In this document: one piece after another, positions 14,934-22,784 of the stretch
Numbering within the stretch: the stretch's first letter is position 1
How the letters are laid out: every line of letters starts with the position of its first letter
NCBI RefSeq assembly: GCF_015206895.1
Contig: NZ_JADEXU010000028.1
Location: 1-64,000 of the forward strand
Reading direction: 5' to 3'
From: Nostoc sp. LEGE 12450
GTDB taxonomy: Bacteria > Cyanobacteriota > Cyanobacteriia > Cyanobacteriales > Nostocaceae
DNA length: 64,000 bases
Notes under the pieces: generated by a model
What the model was told of the DNA's origin: nothing
What the model saw: only the letters and a program-made list of their open reading frames with translations
The model's database searches: none
Position numbers and translations under genes: made by a program

Positions 14934-15307
14934 CAACCGAAGGATATGGAACAGCAGTAAGCTTTAAGAAAGTGCGGGTTGGTTTCGAGGTAGGGTCATC
15001 TTTAAGCCAATACTTACTTGTGAGTCAGAAGGATTATTATTTAATCAGTGTTTTTTCGCCCGCCACTTTCAATGCGATATATAATAGCGCATTATAGATA
15101 CTACTGCTATACGTATCCTTGCTGGACTTTTGCTATCGAGCTATTAGTCTCTTGAAAATGCTCGGCATTTTTGAGACTTCGAGACAGCAAAGGCAAGTTA
15201 AGTAGGAAAAAGGACAACATCTCGAAATAACCCACCATAGAGGATAAATATTCAAGACTTTGATGGACCGAAGCGCGACAAGTGCCACTGCTATGAAAGA
15301 GCCCAGC
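14934..15307. other. Spacer before the response regulator
   Basis: About 370 bases with no gene. It must contain the promoter of the response regulator. No specific regulatory box can be named. Confidence 0.4.
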
Positions 15308-15940
15308 ATGAAAGATCACAAACGACTTCTATTGATTGATGATGACCCTAACCTCATCTTGCTGGTGAAGGATTACTTAGAATTCCGGGGATACGAAGTC
15401 ATCACCGCCGAAAATGGACGTGAAGCTCTGGAAATTTTAGAGCAAGATGTTCCAGACATGATTATCTGCGATGTGATGATGCCGGAAATGGACGGATATA
15501 CTTTTGTGGAACAAGTCCGGCAAAACGAACGCACCAGTTGGATTCCGGTTCTTTTCCTTTCAGCTAAGGGACAAAGTGCAGACCGAGTTAAGGGTCTGAA
15601 TAAAGGTGCTGATGTTTATATGGTCAAGCCCTTTGAACCAGAAGAACTCGTAGCCCAAGTTGAATCCTCGCTGAAACAAACTATCCGTTGGAAAGAACAC
15701 CAAGCAAAAGGAGGCGAAAACGGTTCCCGCATCCAGGTTCCCTTCGATGTGCAATTAACCCCCACCGAACTGAAAGTAGTCCAGTTTGTCGCTAGGGGTT
15801 TAGCTAACCGGGAAATTGCTGAAGAACTAAATGTTAGTCAGCGCACAGTTGAAAGCCATGTGTCCAATATGTTGGGCAAAACCAATCTCCATAACCGCAC
15901 TGAACTAGCGCGGTGGGCGATTGAAAATCAAATGGCCTAA
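15308..15940 (+). CDS. NarL/LuxR-type response regulator
   Basis: About 210 residues with an N-terminal receiver: the acidic pair in LLIDDD, phospho-acceptor Asp55 (DVMMPEMDG) and Lys107 (VKPFEP). The C-terminal LuxR helix-turn-helix is LTPTELKVVQFVARGLANRE and NVSQRTVESHVSNMLGKTNL. It resembles the cyanobacterial/plastid Ycf29-like NarL group. I chose the ATG at 15308 because a purine-rich AAAGAG lies just upstream; an in-frame ATG at 15263 would add 15 residues. No histidine kinase is adjacent; the nearest is at 21645. Confidence 0.85.
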   Translation: MKDHKRLLLIDDDPNLILLVKDYLEFRGYEVITAENGREALEILEQDVPDMIICDVMMPEMDGYTFVEQVRQNERTSWIPVLFLSAKGQSADRVKGLNKGADVYMVKPFEPEELVAQVESSLKQTIRWKEHQAKGGENGSRIQVPFDVQLTPTELKVVQFVARGLANREIAEELNVSQRTVESHVSNMLGKTNLHNRTELARWAIENQMA

Positions 15941-16017: not shown

Positions 16018-16326
16018 TTACCAACCATCTTCTTCAGGGCTGGATTGGTGCAAAACTTCTAAATCCAGTTCATCTAGGTAAGTTAGGGCACTTTCAATCT
16101 GAGAAACAGTACCTCGCAGTTCCAGGTCGAAGCAGCTATATTGTGGCACGTTTGCGCTTACCTGAGCATCAGCAATAATAACTGTGATCCCATAGTGAGA
16201 AACCAGTCGTGAAATGACTGGTTCCTCATGCAAGTATTTAGGAATACGAACCTGGATGCGAGTTTGGGTGCGTCTATTATCTAAAATATCTGTATTAGAT
16301 TTTACTTCTTTATTTGGAATTGCCAT
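16018..16326 (-). CDS. NIL-domain protein
   Basis: A 102-residue protein whose core matches the NIL domain found at the C-terminus of methionine ABC ATPases and in small cyanobacterial proteins: RIQVRIPKYLHEEPVISRLV, then GITVIIADAQVSANV and FDLELRGT. Starts at an ATG. It is predicted cytosolic and may bind a sulfur-containing or related ligand, which is inference from the domain. Confidence 0.8.
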   Translation of the reverse strand: MAIPNKEVKSNTDILDNRRTQTRIQVRIPKYLHEEPVISRLVSHYGITVIIADAQVSANVPQYSCFDLELRGTVSQIESALTYLDELDLEVLHQSSPEEDGW

Positions 16327-16627
16327 TCTAGCTTCCTACTCGACTTCTGGGATGAGGGTTTTGATTTGCATGATTTCTTTTAACACTAGCGTCACTTATC
16401 CCACGCAGGCAAGCAAGAAAGTATTTACCTTTGCAAACCATTAATCTAGATACAAGTAGGTCAATCGCATCTTTTGGCGTGAAACCAGCCAATTCTAGCT
16501 AGATTCTTCTGATTCCTTGTGTCAAGCCTGATTGAGATCCTCTTACCCTGGAAAAGTTGCCATCATCAATTTTCTGTCTTGGAGTTACGATCAATATAGT
16601 AAAACGTTGTATCTGATATACAAAATC

Positions 16628-16843
16628 ATGCTACCGTTTAAGAAGAAAATTGTGACTGATGAAGCCATGCGTCCGGTAGCAGTGTTGATTGATTATCAGG
16701 ACTGGCAGCAAATTGAGAAGATATTAGAAGCTCATCAATCACAACAAAAACAAGAGTTTAATTTAAACCACTATGCAGGTGTAATTCAACTAACTCAAGA
16801 CCCTTTGGAATATCAGCAGCAAATTAGGGATGAGTGGTGTTGA
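16628..16843 (+). CDS. Phd/YefM-like antitoxin, orphan
   Basis: A 71-residue protein from the ATG at 16628 (MLPFKKKIVTDEAMRPVAVL). The pattern VTDE..RPVAVLIDYQDWQQIEKILE is that of small prevent-host-death type antitoxins of cyanobacteria. The frame can be extended upstream to 16532 but with an unrelated sequence, so I use the later ATG. Its stop overlaps the start of a toxin-like frame that breaks after 13 codons. Confidence 0.65.
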   Translation: MLPFKKKIVTDEAMRPVAVLIDYQDWQQIEKILEAHQSQQKQEFNLNHYAGVIQLTQDPLEYQQQIRDEWC

Positions 16844-16878: not shown

Positions 16879-16974
16879 CACTCAGTCAGTGCAAATTACG
16901 TAATGGGAGCAATCGCTTGTTTTAAGGTGAGAATTCAAAGCTTACCAGGAATGAATTTACTCTTGATAATTTCT

Positions 16975-19656
16975 TCATTGCTTGATATCTTCATCCTTAA
17001 CCTGTTCAAATATAAATCCGCTTTCAAAAGGCCCGCCGCGACCTCTTACTACTTTGACAAGAACAGGTTCTTGTTGGCGATCGCCTTTCTCATCAAATTT
17101 GAGTGGATTTCCTGAAGTTTCGCTCGATGAAAGATTAACAGATTTGAGGTTTTGTAAGACGGTTTGGCGAGTGGGATTGTTAGACATGGATATAGCTTTA
17201 ATAAAAACCTGAGTCGCATCATAGGTAGTAGCTGTGCGCCAGCTAATCTGTCCTCCCCATCTTTTACTAGCTTCATCTGCAAATTTTTTTGAGTTTTCTT
17301 CCCCTGCAAACCAGGGTACAGCTAGAACCAAATTATTTTCAACAGCTTCTCCCGTTGATCTCAAAATCTCTGGGTCGTATAAAGCATCTACGCCTAGTAG
17401 AGGTAACTGTTTGCTTCCGCTATTTACTAACTTCTTTTGGGTACGGGTAATTTCATTTACTACAGAAATAAATCGTGTGTTTGGAAACAAAACAGCTGCA
17501 TCGGCTTGATCTTGGAATGCACTAAGTAAGACTTCAGCAGAGGGATCGAGTGTAGGAAGAGCTAAATTTATTCTTCGTATAATTTGGCCACCTCTTTCTT
17601 GAAAAGATTTTTCAAACTCTTTATTTAAGCTTTGACTATAAATATCATCAGGATTCCAGAAAACAACAACTTTCCTATAGTTTTTGCTTAGTGCATAATC
17701 CGCTAACTTTTCAGCACTTTCTTTATCAGAAGCTACTGTTCTAAAAAAGACGTTACTTTTTAATGAAGTGCTGGTGCTGGTTGGAGATATCATCGCTATG
17801 CCAGCCTTTTCATAGTCAGCTAATACTGCTTGACTAGTTGTGCTACTGAACTGTCCTATCACCCCCACAACATTTTCGTCTTTAATTATCTCACGCCCGA
17901 CTTTTTGAGCTTGGTTTGGTTGATTACTATTATTGGCCATTACGATTTTCAACAATCGTCCATTAACTCCACCAGCAATGTTAAAACTATCCTGTGCCTG
18001 TGCAAGTCCTCGCAAGACCTCTTCAGCAATTTCTCTTCTAGCAGTTACAGGTATAACTATTGCCAAAGTTAGGGGTTTGCCTTTTTGGTATGCTTTGGCA
18101 TTATTGTAAAAAATGTATAATTCTGGGTTTTTTGGGGAGGCTTGTATAGCTTTTTGAAAGTAATCAACTGCTTGAGTGTAATTCTGGTTTTTAAAAGCTT
18201 CAAAACCACGATCGCGATTAAAATTATCCTGTCCCTCAAAGAGAGTACGTTCGCCTTGGCTAAATAATTCTGGTTCTGCTTGATAAGCAGGTAATAAAGG
18301 GGTAATGATTTGCCAAGATTGCCATGCAACTATCGGCATTAGTAGTATTATTGGAGCAAATACTAAGAGCAGGCGCTGCTGACTTCTTGCTGCAAATTCC
18401 TGGCTAGCAGATAAAAATTGATAATCTTGAACAGTCAAATCTTTTGCTTTTACCCATGCTTGAGCCTGTCTTAATTTATATCCGCGCAACAGCTTAGATT
18501 TATCCTGACGATTAGAATTTTGCCATGCTTCGAGCTCCTGACGATAGGGACGAAAATCTGTTAATGTATTATTAATCCATTCTTTATTAAAAACAGCTTC
18601 ATATATAGGGTTGTAGACCTTTAATTTACTCTGTTGCTTAACCACCAATCCTGAAAGGCGCAATTCCATTTGTTCAGGACTATCATCAGCCGCAATTTCC
18701 TTTTGTTGTAAAATGGTACTATAAATTCCCAGCAGCTTAACTGTAAGTTGCTTATCTCTCAAAATACGATCGCTTATCGTCTTCAAATGCTGTGGATGAT
18801 CTTGAGATTGCCAGTTGTCAATAATACGCGATTGCACCAAATCTTTTACTGACGATACGTTTATATCATGTGAAATAAAGTTACAAAGCTTTTGAGTTAG
18901 AAATGGTTGCCCACCTGTCCAATTTAAAACTTCTTGCAGCACTACTTTGGGATTGCTAACTTTCCCCTCTAAACCGTTAGCTAATAGCTTGGCTTCATGG
19001 AATTGAAACCCGTTTAATTCAATTGCTCTGCCAATATTAAATGGTGTACGTCTTTTATCTTTAATTAAATACGATGGAGTAGCCACACCCAATAAACAAA
19101 ATGTTAAGCGTTTATATGCTGAATTATCAACACGTTGGTTATAGCAGAACCGAATTAAAGCAAAAAAATCATCAGGAGAAAAATTCTTGAGGCTCAAAAC
19201 GCTATCGATTTCATCAATAAAAATGACAATCTTTCCTAAAATTTGCTTGAGCAAAACTTCTTCAATAAACTTGTTAAAACGCTGTACAGGTGATAGCAAT
19301 TTTTGACTATTCCACCAGCTAACTAAATCAATATGTCCATCTAAATTCAGTTCACTAACTAGACTATTTATCACCCCTGTATACCATTGCCCTTGGGTAA
19401 TATCTGTACCAATCTCGTTCAAGTCGATTGCTGCACAAGTAATTCCGTCAGCCTGCAATTGTTCCATAATTCTTACTCGCAGGCTGGATTTACCCATTTG
19501 TCGTGAGTTTAAGACATAACAAAACTCCCCCGCCATCAAGCCTTCGTATAAGTCTTCATCTGCTTGTCGCGTTACATAGGTGGGGGCATCAGGCGGTAAA
19601 CTACCCCCGACTTTGTATTCATAGTTTGGTAGAGCATCTGGGTAAGTTGACATCAT
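16975..19656 (-). CDS. AAA-like ATPase / TM / TPR / periplasmic-binding-protein receptor
   Basis: An 893-residue fusion. Residues about 15-420 are an AAA-like ATPase of the cyanobacterial AAA_35 type, with Walker [11 protein letters not shown] (50-59) and Walker [11 protein letters not shown] (142-151). A single hydrophobic segment ([18 protein letters not shown], 428-445) is followed by a TPR pair (482-525). Residues about 528-885 form a leucine/isoleucine/valine-binding-like type I periplasmic domain ([28 protein letters not shown]). No N-terminal signal is seen, so the ATPase should be cytosolic and the binding domain periplasmic. It overlaps the TIR gene by four bases (ATGA). The fold order suggests a ligand-sensing receptor. 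Confidence 0.8.
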
Positions 19657-21275
19657 TCCACCCTTAAGCGATCGCGAAAATACAGGCGATACAAATCACA
19701 CAAGGGCAGAACATCATTGCCTGCGTATTTTACAAGTCTCATATTACGTAACTTAGATGCTTTTCCTGCGTCTATTCTAACTGGGCCATTGACAGTAACT
19801 ACTTGCCTCATGGCTTGTAGTAGTTCTGGATTATCCTGCAAGATTAACCAATGGCGAAATAGATGATTGCCGTATAAACCTTCTTCTGTGGGTGCAATTT
19901 GCAATAATTCTGTTAATGTCAGATCACGCTGGGCTATTTTATACAGAGCCTTCTTCACCAGCCAAGGATGCCCACCCACCATTGCCATCAGTTGGGCGAC
20001 TTGCTCTCTATTCCAATAAAGTTTGAGATGTTGTGCCAATTTCTGGATATGCACCTCATTTAATTCTTGTATTTCAATGAGATGACCTACATTGAACGGC
20101 GATCTATTGGTATCTATGGGAATGAAATCTTCTTTGGAATAGGCAATCACCAACCGCAGCTTTTGCCAAATAGGTTTATTCTTGGCCTTCTCATACCAAG
20201 CTCGCAGCAAGGGAAGAAAGTCACAAGCAATTTTTTGATGAGAGAAAATCACATCAACGTTATCCAATCCCAAAATTAGGGGACTGCTGATTGCTGGTAA
20301 GAGATATCTTTCAAAATAGTTTGTACAATTGCTGTTAGCACCCAGCGCATCTCGCCAGTTTTCAGCTAGGTTATCCGGTATATGCAAATCTTCGGCTATG
20401 TAGCTACAGAACCACTGCAAGAACTGTTTTAGACTATTAAATACTTCTTTTTCTGGCTCCTGAAAGTCCACTCGCACTGTTTGATAGTCTTGCTGAATTC
20501 CATAATAGAGAATCTGGTTCATTAAGTAGGTTTTGCCCCATTGCAAGGGGGCCTTCACCCGGATTAATGCCCCTGGCTTATCTACTTCTTTATAACAATC
20601 AAAATAAAAAGCTTTATCGAAAAACGGAAATTCCAGTTCTGGGGATGGTTCTGGATCTAGTAACCCGTTCAAATCAGACGAATTTGAAGCCAAATTCACC
20701 TGTCCATTAGTCAATACTGGTTCTGCCACTGGCAAAGCAGGATGAGCAGATGAGGCGATGAGGGGAAATAATTGTTCGTCTCCCAATTCCCCACTCTCCG
20801 ACTCTTCCACTCTCCGACTCTCACCCTCTGCCAGTAAACTAAAAATTTCGTGTAAAATTTTGGGAGTATCGGCAGGTGAATTCCACTCTCGCTGCTGAAC
20901 CTGTTGTAAATAGCCCCGCAAATCATAATTCAGTGGCGTACTCCAAGGGAGGTTGACGCGAATGGGCAAAATCACTGGCTTATGATCGCTACCATCCCGT
21001 AACTCTTTGGCTTGTCTCACCTCTTCTGTCACCATCTCGCTAGTTGCCGATCGCTCAGACAACAGCAACAAAAAGTAATCACACAGTTTTAATTCTTCAT
21101 CAATGCGCTGAGGCCATTTTTCCCCCAAGCGAATACTCTCGCCTGCCATGAATGCTTCGTGTCCAGCAGCTTTAATAGCTTCATAAAAATCCTTGGCAAG
21201 GCTCAAGTCTGGATCTTGGCTGCGGTAGCTAATGAAAAATCTAGCGCTTTTGCTGGCTGCTGGCAAAGTTGGCAT
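19653..21275 (-). CDS. TIR domain fused to an AAA-like ATPase
   Basis: About 540 residues from the ATG at 21275; a TTG ten codons upstream is possible. Residues 11-140 are a TIR domain ([30 protein letters not shown]), with Glu85 in the position of the catalytic Glu of TIR NADases but Met in place of the usual Trp. A repeat-bearing linker (about 150-200) leads to an AAA-like domain with a degenerate Walker A ([13 protein letters not shown]) and Walker B-like [11 protein letters not shown], similar in type to that of the downstream gene. It is co-transcribed with and upstream of the receptor gene. TIR domains are NAD+ hydrolases or scaffolds in defence and signalling; activity here is inferred. 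Confidence 0.8.
20791..20822. repeat. 16-bp direct duplication in the TIR linker
   Basis: The unit CCACTCTCCGACTCTT is repeated once at 20807 as CCACTCTCCGACTCTC. It lies in the linker between the TIR and ATPase domains (about residues 151-161). A 16-bp unit is not a multiple of three, so the two copies are read in different frames. Confidence 0.6.
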
Positions 21276-21644
21276 AGTCGGATAAATATCCAGAAATTTT
21301 GACAAATTTGACTATATTATTGCAATTTACGGAATAGAAGCTAATTTTTACTTTTTTCTAAACAACTTACTGGTAGCCGATACCCGACCTACTGATACAT
21401 TTAGTAACTAAAATATTGCCGCCATTCTCTATATTCAGTTCTAAAAGTTTACGAGCCATAATTCAATTAGCTTGTAGCTATCTGCTAAAAAGGTCAGTAA
21501 AGTAGTTTTTAAAACACATTTATATAAATTTCTTGGTAAAAAATTTTTCTTTGGAGGAAATTTACTTAAGAGAACTATCTCAAAAACTATACCAATAAAC
21601 CAGTTTCCCTAACAATTTACTTTTATCCCGTACCTTGTATCTAT
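21276..21644. other. Divergent promoter region of TIR unit and hybrid kinase
   Basis: About 370 AT-rich bases lie between the divergent TIR-ATPase gene and the hybrid kinase gene, so both promoters must be here. I see no named operator or gene in it. Confidence 0.5.
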
Positions 21645-22784
21645 ATGACTTCACAATCTTCTCGTTCTGGCAAAATTCTGGTAGTTGATGACTCTCCTGA
21701 TAACGTGTTTTTGATTAAAACTATTTTGGAGGAAGAAGGTTACACGATTAGCACCGCAGAAAATGGGATTTCAGCCTTAGCAGAATTGAAAGCTTCTCCT
21801 TGTGACTTAGTTCTGCTGGATCTGATGATGCCAGATATGGATGGGTACGAAGTTACTAAGCACATTCGTGGAGAGATGAAATTGCCACAATATATCCCTA
21901 TCCTGCTGATTACTGCCCACGATGCGCCCAACGTCGCCCACGGATTAGACTTAGGTGCTGATGATTTTATCCGCAAACCTGTAACTGTGGATGAATTGCT
22001 GGCACGAGTGCGATCGCTCCTACGTTTGAAGCATAGTATGGATGAACGTGATGAAATTGCCCGCCAGCGAGAAGATTTTGTCTCTCGTCTCACCCACGAT
22101 TTACGCACTCCTTTAGTGGCAGCCGATCGTATGTTGATGCTATTTCAGCAAGGTGCATTGGGAACATTATCACCACAAATGCAGGAAGTAATCACCATCA
22201 TGGCCCGTAGTAATCTCAACCTGCTTACTATGGTCAATACTTTATTGGAAGTTTATCGCTTTGAAGCAGGTCGCAAAAGTTTGGCATTTCAACCAGTTAA
22301 TCTAGGACGTTTGCTAGAGGAGGTGACTGGAGAATTAGCACCACTAGCTCAAGCTAAAACACTGTCGCTAAATTTGGATTTTACTGAAGAGTCAAATACA
22401 GTTATGGGCGATCGCTTAGAATTGCATCGTCTATTTACAAACCTGATCGGCAATGCAATCAAATTTACCGACTCCGGGTCTGTGACTATTCGTTTTACTT
22501 CTCAACGACAGTTAGACAAAAGTAGTCAATCTCAGTTATCTGGAAAATTTAATCCCGTTGAATATATCAGCATTGCGATCGCGGATACTGGCCCAGGTAT
22601 TCCCACCGAAGAACAGTCCACCATATTTGAAAGATTTCGTCAAGGTAGTCACAAGAGTTCTGGTAGTGGCTTAGGACTCTACCTTGCTCGTCGAATTGTC
22701 GAGGCTCATCAAGGCATTATTTTGCTGAATTCTGAGTTGGGGAAAGGTAGTGTATTTATTGTCCTTTTACCTGCCACAACATGA
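21645..22784 (+). CDS. Receiver-histidine kinase hybrid (REC-HisKA-HATPase)
   Basis: The 379 residues hold an N-terminal receiver (Asp59 in LLDLMMPDMDG, Lys111 in RKPVT), a HisKA domain with His151 (RLTHDLRTPL), and an HATPase domain with N box NLIGNAIKF, G1 DTGPGIP and G2 GSGLGLYLA. There is no transmembrane segment, so it is cytosolic. The REC-before-kinase order means its kinase is likely regulated by phosphorylation from another kinase. It is divergent from the TIR/receptor unit. No named target is adjacent. Confidence 0.9.
   Translation: MTSQSSRSGKILVVDDSPDNVFLIKTILEEEGYTISTAENGISALAELKASPCDLVLLDLMMPDMDGYEVTKHIRGEMKLPQYIPILLITAHDAPNVAHGLDLGADDFIRKPVTVDELLARVRSLLRLKHSMDERDEIARQREDFVSRLTHDLRTPLVAADRMLMLFQQGALGTLSPQMQEVITIMARSNLNLLTMVNTLLEVYRFEAGRKSLAFQPVNLGRLLEEVTGELAPLAQAKTLSLNLDFTEESNTVMGDRLELHRLFTNLIGNAIKFTDSGSVTIRFTSQRQLDKSSQSQLSGKFNPVEYISIAIADTGPGIPTEEQSTIFERFRQGSHKSSGSGLGLYLARRIVEAHQGIILLNSELGKGSVFIVLLPATT

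Follow-up and report, generated by a model that had tools for sequence, protein, structure and literature searches.

A paired AAA_35 ATPase locus of Nostoc sp. LEGE 12450 with probable in-place exchange of sensor and effector modules

Can a solute-binding domain outside the membrane control a TIR effector that is located on another protein inside the cell? This question is raised by two adjacent genes of Nostoc sp. LEGE 12450, named A and B here, in the window, which is the whole stretch of 64,000 nucleotides analyzed (positions 1 to 64,000 of contig NZ_JADEXU010000028.1, forward strand). Gene A encodes a TIR domain fused to an ATPase domain of the AAA_35 family (PF14516), and gene B an AAA_35 domain followed by one predicted transmembrane (TM) segment and a type I periplasmic-binding protein (PBP) domain (Table 1). 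This domain order and the ATGA overlap of the two genes had been proposed in the initial annotation and were found again, with both open reading frames (ORFs) present on the minus strand and Pfam matches to TIR_2, AAA_35, and Peripla_BP_6. Both AAA_35 matches exceeded the curated Pfam cut-off of 27 bits, and the Peripla_BP_6 match was near full-length, covering positions 17 to 331 of 343 of the profile. The TPR domains also ascribed to B shrank to a single TPR-like repeat with a score below the Pfam cut-off. As judged from its sequence, the pair unites paired ATPases, one chain providing a slot for effectors and the other a slot for a TM-PBP sensor. Pairs of AAA_35 genes form a large family in cyanobacteria, to which this one belongs, and sensor and effector modules have probably been exchanged in place at the chromosomal site of the pair.

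The site was marked by a response regulator-histidine kinase (RR-HK) gene and was examined in 20 of 22 relatives from the same genus, with G006 and G011 left out because their contigs end close by. An AAA_35 pair was located beside the RR-HK gene in nine of these 20 relatives, a gene or pieces of a gene for a LuxR-like helix-turn-helix (HTH)-NACHT-NCH2 protein in four, neither of them in two, and the context was a different one in the remaining five. Since four relatives carry the NACHT gene instead, the position beside the RR-HK gene resembles a hotspot of signaling NTPases. The genes or pieces that replaced the AAA_35 pair, as assigned by Pfam, were L211:1915-4221, L212:11739-14213, L215:15672-16568, and L218:10749-12823.

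The AAA_35 pairs occurred at the site in several versions. TIR was combined with PBP in the window, in G007, and in G004, which contained a shortened A and a B without the ATPase part. Trypsin with PBP was present in G010 and in N. flagelliforme (L030), the latter with an internal deletion in B, and here a Trypsin_2-type module occupied the effector block (block 1 in Table 1). In G001, TIR was accompanied by HisKA-HATPase_c, a histidine kinase in the sensor block (block 2; Pfam assignment of the L225 B protein), in G002 by PG_binding_1, and in G016 by a B C-terminus without an assigned domain and with several hydrophobic segments. A trypsin-TIR fusion was found with PG_binding_1 in G003 (Pfam) and with an interrupted B in G012 (BLAST), and a broken TIR pair in G020. 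The PBP-type B proteins of G007 and G010 comprised 897 and 895 amino acids (aa), respectively, and were accompanied by whole A genes at this site.

The borders of the modules were visible at the DNA level. When the window was compared with two trypsin versions, the BLASTN match ended at position 20685 and resumed at 21326, and a block that matched G001, G002, and G016 with about 87% identity began at 20686. In comparison with G001, there was no BLASTN match from 16924 to 18392, a stretch that begins ahead of the membrane segment and extends beyond the end of B. These abrupt shifts of DNA identity, one at the TIR-ATPase border and one shortly ahead of the membrane segment, indicate that the modules were probably exchanged in place. 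For the ATPase block of the window A gene, identity was highest with the two trypsin versions (88% and 85%), followed by the remaining TIR/PBP versions (80% and 77%) and by the TIR versions with other B genes (64 to 67%, over 36 to 65% of the block). The TIR block was 93% and 90% identical to the TIR/PBP versions and 85 to 86% to G001, G002, and G016, with no match in the trypsin versions. These block identities make the A gene of the window a mosaic with its joint in the TIR-ATPase linker. Alternatively, TIR and trypsin may alternate due to losses from a trypsin-TIR-AAA_35 ancestor, and the fusions in G003 and G012 at the same site are what such an ancestor would look like. Exchange is nevertheless preferred over loss because the ATPase block of A is closer to the trypsin versions than to the TIR versions with other B genes, three of which are 85 to 86% identical to the window in their TIR block.

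Beyond this site, near full-length genes for PBP-type B proteins were present in 25 of 388 genomes of the order, including the host (E 1e-178), and others were obtained by further searches. In agreement with the coupling suggested by the initial annotation, the pair was kept together in relatives, with an A gene, whole or partial, adjoining a PBP-type B gene in 36 of 38 cases. It was upstream on the same strand in 31 (shortened in L030 and L031, the B protein of L031 being without the ATPase part), partial and upstream in two (L092 at a contig end, and L133, which is short), and in tail-to-tail orientation in three; the fetched stretches of two, L120 and L124, the latter near a contig end, contained no A gene. 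The tail-to-tail pairs L125, L127, and L128 consisted of EAD4-AAA_35 A genes overlapping the PBP-type B genes by 4 bases, an arrangement which indicates that the partner was retained without co-transcription. Across six genomes, the host among them, 26 of the 39 B-type domains were located not more than 2.5 kb from an A-type domain on the same strand (11 of 13 in the host, 5 of 6 in G007, 6 of 9 in G363, 2 of 5 in G313, 2 of 5 in G043, and none of 1 in G041), and A and B were united in a single reading frame in three of those 26. Both the fusions in one frame and the tail-to-tail pairs suggest that A and B act as a complex. Matches to A, at least 150 in number, were found in 151 of the 388 genomes, and 40 regions were fetched. 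One fused pair in the same genome as the window (L041:529-6611, G000 C13) contained a long N-terminal region without a Pfam match followed by the AAA_35 domains in the order B-A. It was flanked by a VMAP-C/VMAP-M1 gene and by a MoxR-like AAA_5 gene with a sub-threshold bpMoxR match, a context that may tie AAA_35 to the MoxR-vWA ternary conflict systems, recalling those treated in passages of PMC7159879.

The effector slot of A was filled by various modules. Among the 34 readable A partners of PBP-type B proteins, these were CHAT (11), HTH (11), TIR (3), EAD4 (3), trypsin (2), LuxR-like HTH (2), and PNP (1), with one partner unassigned. These labels were derived from Pfam for representatives and from BLASTP clusters of the N-termini for the remainder; the HTH label is based on a sub-threshold match (L080, HTH_26 with 20.1 versus 22 bits), as is one of the two LuxR-like assignments (L129). 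TIR and trypsin share one BLASTP cluster because of their common linker; they were told apart with Pfam and, in the case of L030, by eye. With TIR on only three of the 34 partners, a dedicated PBP-TIR system, which had been the initial idea, was too narrow and was rejected. In a tree of 33 of the 38 PBP-type B proteins, calculated without L092, L120, L124, L133, and L135, the window was placed into a clade of five in which TIR and trypsin alternate on well-supported branches, with two incomplete rows, L030 and L031. A second TIR-A gene of the host genome is paired with a WD40 B gene that is cut by the contig end (L044). In other A proteins, TIR was preceded by a trypsin, CHAT, guanylate cyclase, or protein kinase module (Pfam); such proteins with a second module, TIR, and AAA_35 in this order were encoded at L176:1172-3772, L177:5077-7182, L170:5457-7607, and L173:3637-6024.

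The TIR domain of the window may be an active enzyme. The initial annotation had assigned a glutamate to the NADase position, and in a profile alignment E95 was indeed aligned with the glutamate of WCWDEL in Cat1 (9mud) and of WPAREL in 4lzp, both of which we take to be catalytic; the CRISPR-linked TIR protein Cat1 is one alignment partner that supports the TIR glutamate of A. This residue was conserved in 36 of 46 TIR domains, one of which was located in its own frame beside its A gene (L183), and in all 30 that were most similar to the window, the window counted. By eye, the trypsin module of L078 likewise showed His, Asp, and Ser in contexts typical of them, and His and Cys were seen in the CHAT modules. 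Partial matches to components of known or candidate defense systems were obtained for trypsin (LmuA and RT-Protease_XI), CHAT ("chat" and SAVED_CHAT), PNP (PDC-M60C and "Effector," of the PN-superfamily), and TIR, including that of the window (ThsB and SAVED_TIR). Since trypsin, CHAT, PNP, and TIR-like domains occur outside of defense too, these matches are taken as suggestive.

The ATPase domains themselves were of two kinds. A profile search gave 29 AAA_35 matches in the host genome and none in 14 control genomes; A-type domains had higher scores, a C-terminal position, and a variable N-terminus in front of them, and B-type domains lower scores, an N-terminal position, and a variable C-terminus behind them. 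A degenerate Walker A motif in A opposite to an intact one in B, as had been claimed, does not distinguish the two proteins. The first glycine of GxxxxGK is absent from both subfamilies, with Ala at this position in 87 of 89 A-type and Asn in 85 of 91 B-type domains, and the contrast was rejected for this reason. The asymmetry of the two ATPases is found at the Walker B motif instead, which reads DN in A and DE in B of the window. The Walker B glutamate was retained in 89 of 91 B-type and 58 of 89 A-type domains, and the Asn in A was common to all five members of the window clade. Among A-type domains, the glutamate was present in 8 of 34 partnered with PBP, 8 of 12 other domains of the host genome, and 42 of 43 from the 40 loci fetched around TIR-A genes, the last set including at least one domain without TIR. 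Loss of this glutamate thus looks tied to PBP partners, a link stated here as counts because independent events on the tree were too few (one pair on well-supported branches, five on all). An arginine about 20 residues past Walker B was invariant in an alignment of 48 rows, which seems to place A and B rows on one half of the fused pair L041, and is a candidate for an arginine finger. Relatives of AAA_35 gave sub-threshold Pfam matches to ATPase_2 and nSTAND3. No study of AAA_35 was found in full text for "PF14516" or, by title among the matches listed, for "AAA_35."

The sensor slot of B is predicted to be located on the other side of the membrane. The membrane segment of the window B protein is preceded by two lysine or arginine residues within 15 positions and followed by none within 15. 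A hydrophobic segment between ATPase and PBP was present in 28 of 33 B proteins and absent from L030, L031, L122a, L132, and L134, and lysine and arginine were more numerous before than after the segment in all 28. This agrees with the predicted position of the PBP domain outside and the ATPase inside of the membrane, as the initial annotation had supposed. The solved chains nearest to the PBP domain (3hut, 3td9, 4mlc, and 3ip5) are mostly annotated as amino-acid-binding or branched-chain amino-acid-binding. In 31 PBP domains compared, with L030 and L031 left out in addition to the five proteins missing from the tree, S605, Y615, and S629 were among the invariant residues, and they fall into a stretch that is aligned with the ligand-binding loops of amino-acid PBPs. 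No setting of an ABC transporter was recognizable by Pfam: the domain is fused to an ATPase via one TM segment, and none of five scanned neighbors was a permease or an ABC ATPase. Elsewhere in cyanobacteria, the PBP module was fused to protein kinases (L234:223-2769 and L235:1480-3981) and, in L228 and L230:232-2928, to an N-terminus that resembles an ATPase and matches AAA_35 below the threshold, which indicates a general ectodomain. Other B proteins ended with WD40, CHASE2, histidine kinase, or peptidoglycan-binding domains. Downstream of a PNP-A/PBP-B pair, L118:9632-11365 encodes a PBP protein without AAA_35 and with an N-terminus that resembles, by eye, the one before the B gene of L124; it could be a stand-alone adaptor receptor.

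On balance, we lean slightly toward a mechanism in which A and B would form an NLR-like receptor that is anchored in the membrane, split over two proteins, and equipped with an effector in trans. B would be the membrane-anchored sensor, with AAA_35 in the cytosol, one helix through the inner membrane, and the PBP in the periplasm, which would close on a small, probably amino-acid-like solute. A would be the effector half, composed of AAA_35 and TIR. The ATPase domains may form a hetero-complex in which ATP is hydrolyzed by B, leaving A, without the Walker B glutamate, mainly to bind nucleotides or to serve as a structural partner. Altered occupancy by the ligand would change B, and the complex would then rearrange or oligomerize, so that the TIR domains cluster. 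Cleavage of NAD+ by E95 (E85 when counted from the ATG) would lead to growth stop or cell death, most plausibly as a defense or damage response in the multicellular filament. The ATPase pair might then serve as a chassis for exchanged effectors such as trypsin, CHAT, or PNP and for exchanged sensors or outputs such as WD40, CHASE2, histidine kinase, or peptidoglycan-binding domains. In favor of this reading are the linkage of A and B genes, the correlated distances of their ATPases given below, the differing modules with common junctions at one site, the repeated changes of the A-side module on the B tree, the partial matches to defense effectors, the aligned TIR glutamate, the Walker B asymmetry, the membrane segment of B proteins, and the fused pair of L041 with its VMAP and MoxR-like neighbors.

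Several observations weigh against this reading, and the first of them concern the bond between A and B. The A ATPase of the window is nearer to G010 (85%) than to G001 (65%), and the B ATPase is at a similar distance from either (73% and 71%). The B ATPase block is 85% identical to that of L030 (over 67% of the block) and 71 to 73% to those of the other intact pairs alike. Since their closest relatives differ, the A and B ATPase blocks at the site have no common history; recombination between the A and B genes may have occurred. In the comparison of positions 18393 to 20685 with L206 and L225, the same difference between the A and B blocks was seen. On the tree of PBP-type B proteins, the label of the A side changed at least 10 times, which is to be compared with a minimum of 7 for eight labels and a mean of 19 after shuffling. 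This strong clustering indicates that pairings are mostly inherited and exchanges occasional. The pairwise distances of A and B ATPases were correlated (r 0.75 for 68 pairs and r 0.90 for 9 pairs of the host genome, with none of 2000 shuffles as high), which favors a partnership, but co-duplication of neighboring genes would also yield such a correlation. A and B may be only co-transcribed, each ATPase acting alone as a homo-oligomer and the adjacency being due to duplication of a two-gene unit. The differing relatives of the two ATPase blocks would fit, as would the 13 of 39 B-type domains without A on the same strand within 2.5 kb and the two PBP-type B genes without A in the fetched stretch. 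Such an explanation is improbable in view of the three natural one-frame fusions, the three tail-to-tail pairs, and the fact that pairs at the site contain both ATPases whatever the outer modules, except for the shortened copy of G004.

Shortened or broken copies (L030, L031/L216, G012, and G020) are a further point of this kind. They could mean that the pair is what remains, in decay and with hardly any function, of a TIR-trypsin system that was once active, and the Walker B glutamate missing from the window A protein could be read in the same way. Both ORFs of the window are long, open, and equipped with the motifs of the family, whole A genes stand beside PBP-type B genes for 897 and 895 aa at the site in G007 and G010, and the five members of the clade have the Walker B Asn in common, so that decay is a quite improbable explanation.

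The remaining points concern the output. HTH modules alone were present on 11 + 2 of the 34 A partners, and histidine kinase, CHAT, or GAF domains occur on some B proteins; an assignment of the effector to A and the sensor to B is for these reasons not universal. The glutamate was absent from 10 of the 46 TIR domains, all ten at 54% identity or less, so the TIR domains of the A family include probable scaffolds. Instead of Glu, a Q, K, V, or I residue was found in L190, L192, L194, L195, L196, L198, L202, L204, L205, and L191:13729-15546. In addition, the only hint of conflict among the five neighbors scanned with Pfam was a gene for a RelB-like antitoxin. The pair may instead serve ordinary nutrient or environmental signaling, with a PBP that reports an amino acid or a similar solute, ATPases that relay the signal by protein contacts, and a TIR scaffold that does not cause cell death. 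This would be in line with the PBP modules on protein kinases and on ATPase-like N-termini, with HisKA, GAF, or CHASE2 domains on other B proteins, with the many A partners that contain only HTH, and with the TIR domains that lack Glu. The TIR domain of the window and all of the 30 most similar ones kept the glutamate, however, the place of TIR is taken in two of the closest receptors by a trypsin-like domain in which His, Asp, and Ser are apparently present, and CHAT and PNP, found elsewhere in the slot, belong to classes that partially match effectors of defense systems. Nutrient signaling is thus considered unlikely, albeit the most serious of these alternatives, and the split receptor remains the preferred explanation.

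Table 1. Positions of the A and B genes, their domains, the exchange blocks, and the flanking genes in the window
Feature	Position	Strand	Basis and remarks
Gene A, TIR-AAA_35	19653..21275	-	540 aa from ATG at 21275; ORF 19653-21305, 550 aa from TTG at 21305
Gene B, AAA_35-TM-TPR-like-PBP	16975..19656	-	ORF, 893 aa
ATGA, overlap of A stop and B start	19653..19656	-	Sequence
TIR domain (TIR_2)	20889..21239	-	Pfam E 1e-17, 65.2 bits; residues 23-139, TTG numbering
Putative NADase glutamate E95 (TTG numbering; E85 from ATG)	21021..21023	-	Alignment
A-type AAA_35	19674..20600	-	Pfam E 2e-121, 405.2 bits (406.8 in a second scan); residues 236-544
A Walker A, APLQWGKT	20529..20552	-	Identical motif in all five members of the window clade
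A Walker B, LGLDNVD	20253..20273	-	Asn at the position of the catalytic Glu
B-type AAA_35	18586..19605	-	Pfam E 1e-36, 126.9 bits; residues 18-357; Walker A NSRQMGKS (family norm), Walker B FIDEID
B membrane segment, predicted, single	18316..18372	-	Residues 429-447; Kyte-Doolittle mean 2.15
B TPR-like repeat, one	18127..18210	-	Residues 483-510; 21.9 bits, Pfam cut-off 27.8
B type I PBP domain, amino-acid type	17068..18030	-	Peripla_BP_6 E 9e-39, 134.5 bits; residues 543-863; nearest solved chain 3hut
Exchange block 1 (effector slot): TIR and start region	20686..21325	-	BLASTN junctions 20685/20686 and 21325/21326; block identities
Exchange block 2 (sensor slot): membrane segment, TPR-like repeat, PBP, 3' end	16924..18392	-	No BLASTN match in L225
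Flank and site marker: RR-HK gene	21645..22784	+	Pfam; in all 22 same-genus relatives searched
Other flank: response regulator	15260-15940	+	Pfam
Other flank: NIL gene	16018-16326	-	Pfam
Other flank: RelB/Phd-like antitoxin gene	16532-16843	+	Pfam

A search of plasmids yielded 39 records that matched B, 38 of them within the ATPase part and one (H34) within the PBP part, and none of the 39 covered 80% of B.

How does the pair compare with known systems? Neither A nor B was a member of any named system in NCBIfam or PADLOC, where A gave only weak or partial TIR matches and B none in PADLOC. The two-gene nSTAND2 system, as described in passages of PMC8195603, resembles the window in its adjacent genes, each with a constant NTPase core. 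According to these passages, its eroded NTPase is fused to variable effectors, and a hetero-multimer was proposed. A comparable erosion is present in the window A protein, with Asn in Walker B next to TIR, and is not general, the glutamate being retained in 42 of the 43 A domains from the TIR-A loci. The effectors differ as well, being most commonly GT4 or HEPN in these passages of PMC8195603, TIR in the window, and trypsin, CHAT, PNP, EAD4, or HTH on the scanned A partners. The same passages mention no extracellular ligand-binding sensor, which is predicted for the window B protein. In the Pfam scan of the window proteins, there was no nSTAND2 match up to E 1, the presence of this model in the Pfam copy used being unchecked.

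The EACC1 membrane system, in the parts of PMC7159879 devoted to it, also consists of two genes with variable C-terminal domains and comprises, in some instances, TM helices followed by an extracellular PBP. Its constant parts differ from the paired ATPases of the window, being a TM component and a caspase, and the PBP is located on the caspase protein. The Avs proteins and the bacterial NACHT proteins share with the window the order effector, switch ATPase, and variable sensor, and some contain TIR or peptidase domains, as stated in passages of PMC10907252. They are single-chain proteins there, whereas the window distributes these parts over two ORFs, each with an ATPase, and its sensor is predicted to be outside of the membrane.

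With Thoeris, the window shares a TIR domain with a catalytic-type glutamate. It differs from Thoeris in the low score of its TIR domain versus ThcB4 (29.5 bits, cut-off 220), in the PADLOC matches, which were partial and confined to TIR, and in the five neighbors scanned with Pfam, none of which contained a ThsA-like domain. Nor was a MoxR or VMAP gene, as in the VMAP/MoxR-vWA ternary system, among these five neighbors. A prior description of such a pair was not found in the literature searched, which comprised titles, the beginnings of abstracts, and passages, with most subscription journals not covered.

For TIR, trypsin, and CHAT effectors of bacteria, most discussion concerns responses to intracellular triggers. 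Animal Toll-like and IL-1 receptors possess a ligand-binding ectodomain, one TM helix, and a cytosolic TIR output. The comparison with the IL-1 receptor, as outlined in parts of PMC7075850, and with Toll-like receptors is an analogy only: the TIR domain of the window is on a separate protein and would be reached via paired ATPases, and the ectodomain is a PBP. The pair may tentatively be seen as an in-principle bacterial counterpart of a cell-surface Toll-like receptor, in which an extracellular solute-binding domain would control a TIR domain or a protease in trans via a paired-ATPase chassis, and populations would renew sensor and effector by recombination at one site. If a PBP ectodomain does stand before a TIR effector, the filament would turn an extracellular small molecule, perhaps released by damaged neighbors, into a stop-or-die decision. 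The receptor reading, if true, would also give the AAA_35 family a role, and the modules swapped at one site with shared junctions provide a natural set for separating the input from the output part. The pair is filed as a variant within the known class of modular NTPase conflict systems, outside of any named system. The nearest described arrangement found is the nSTAND2 two-gene system and the nearest described sensor the TM-PBP part on the caspase proteins of the EACC1 system, both as they appear in the passages cited above.

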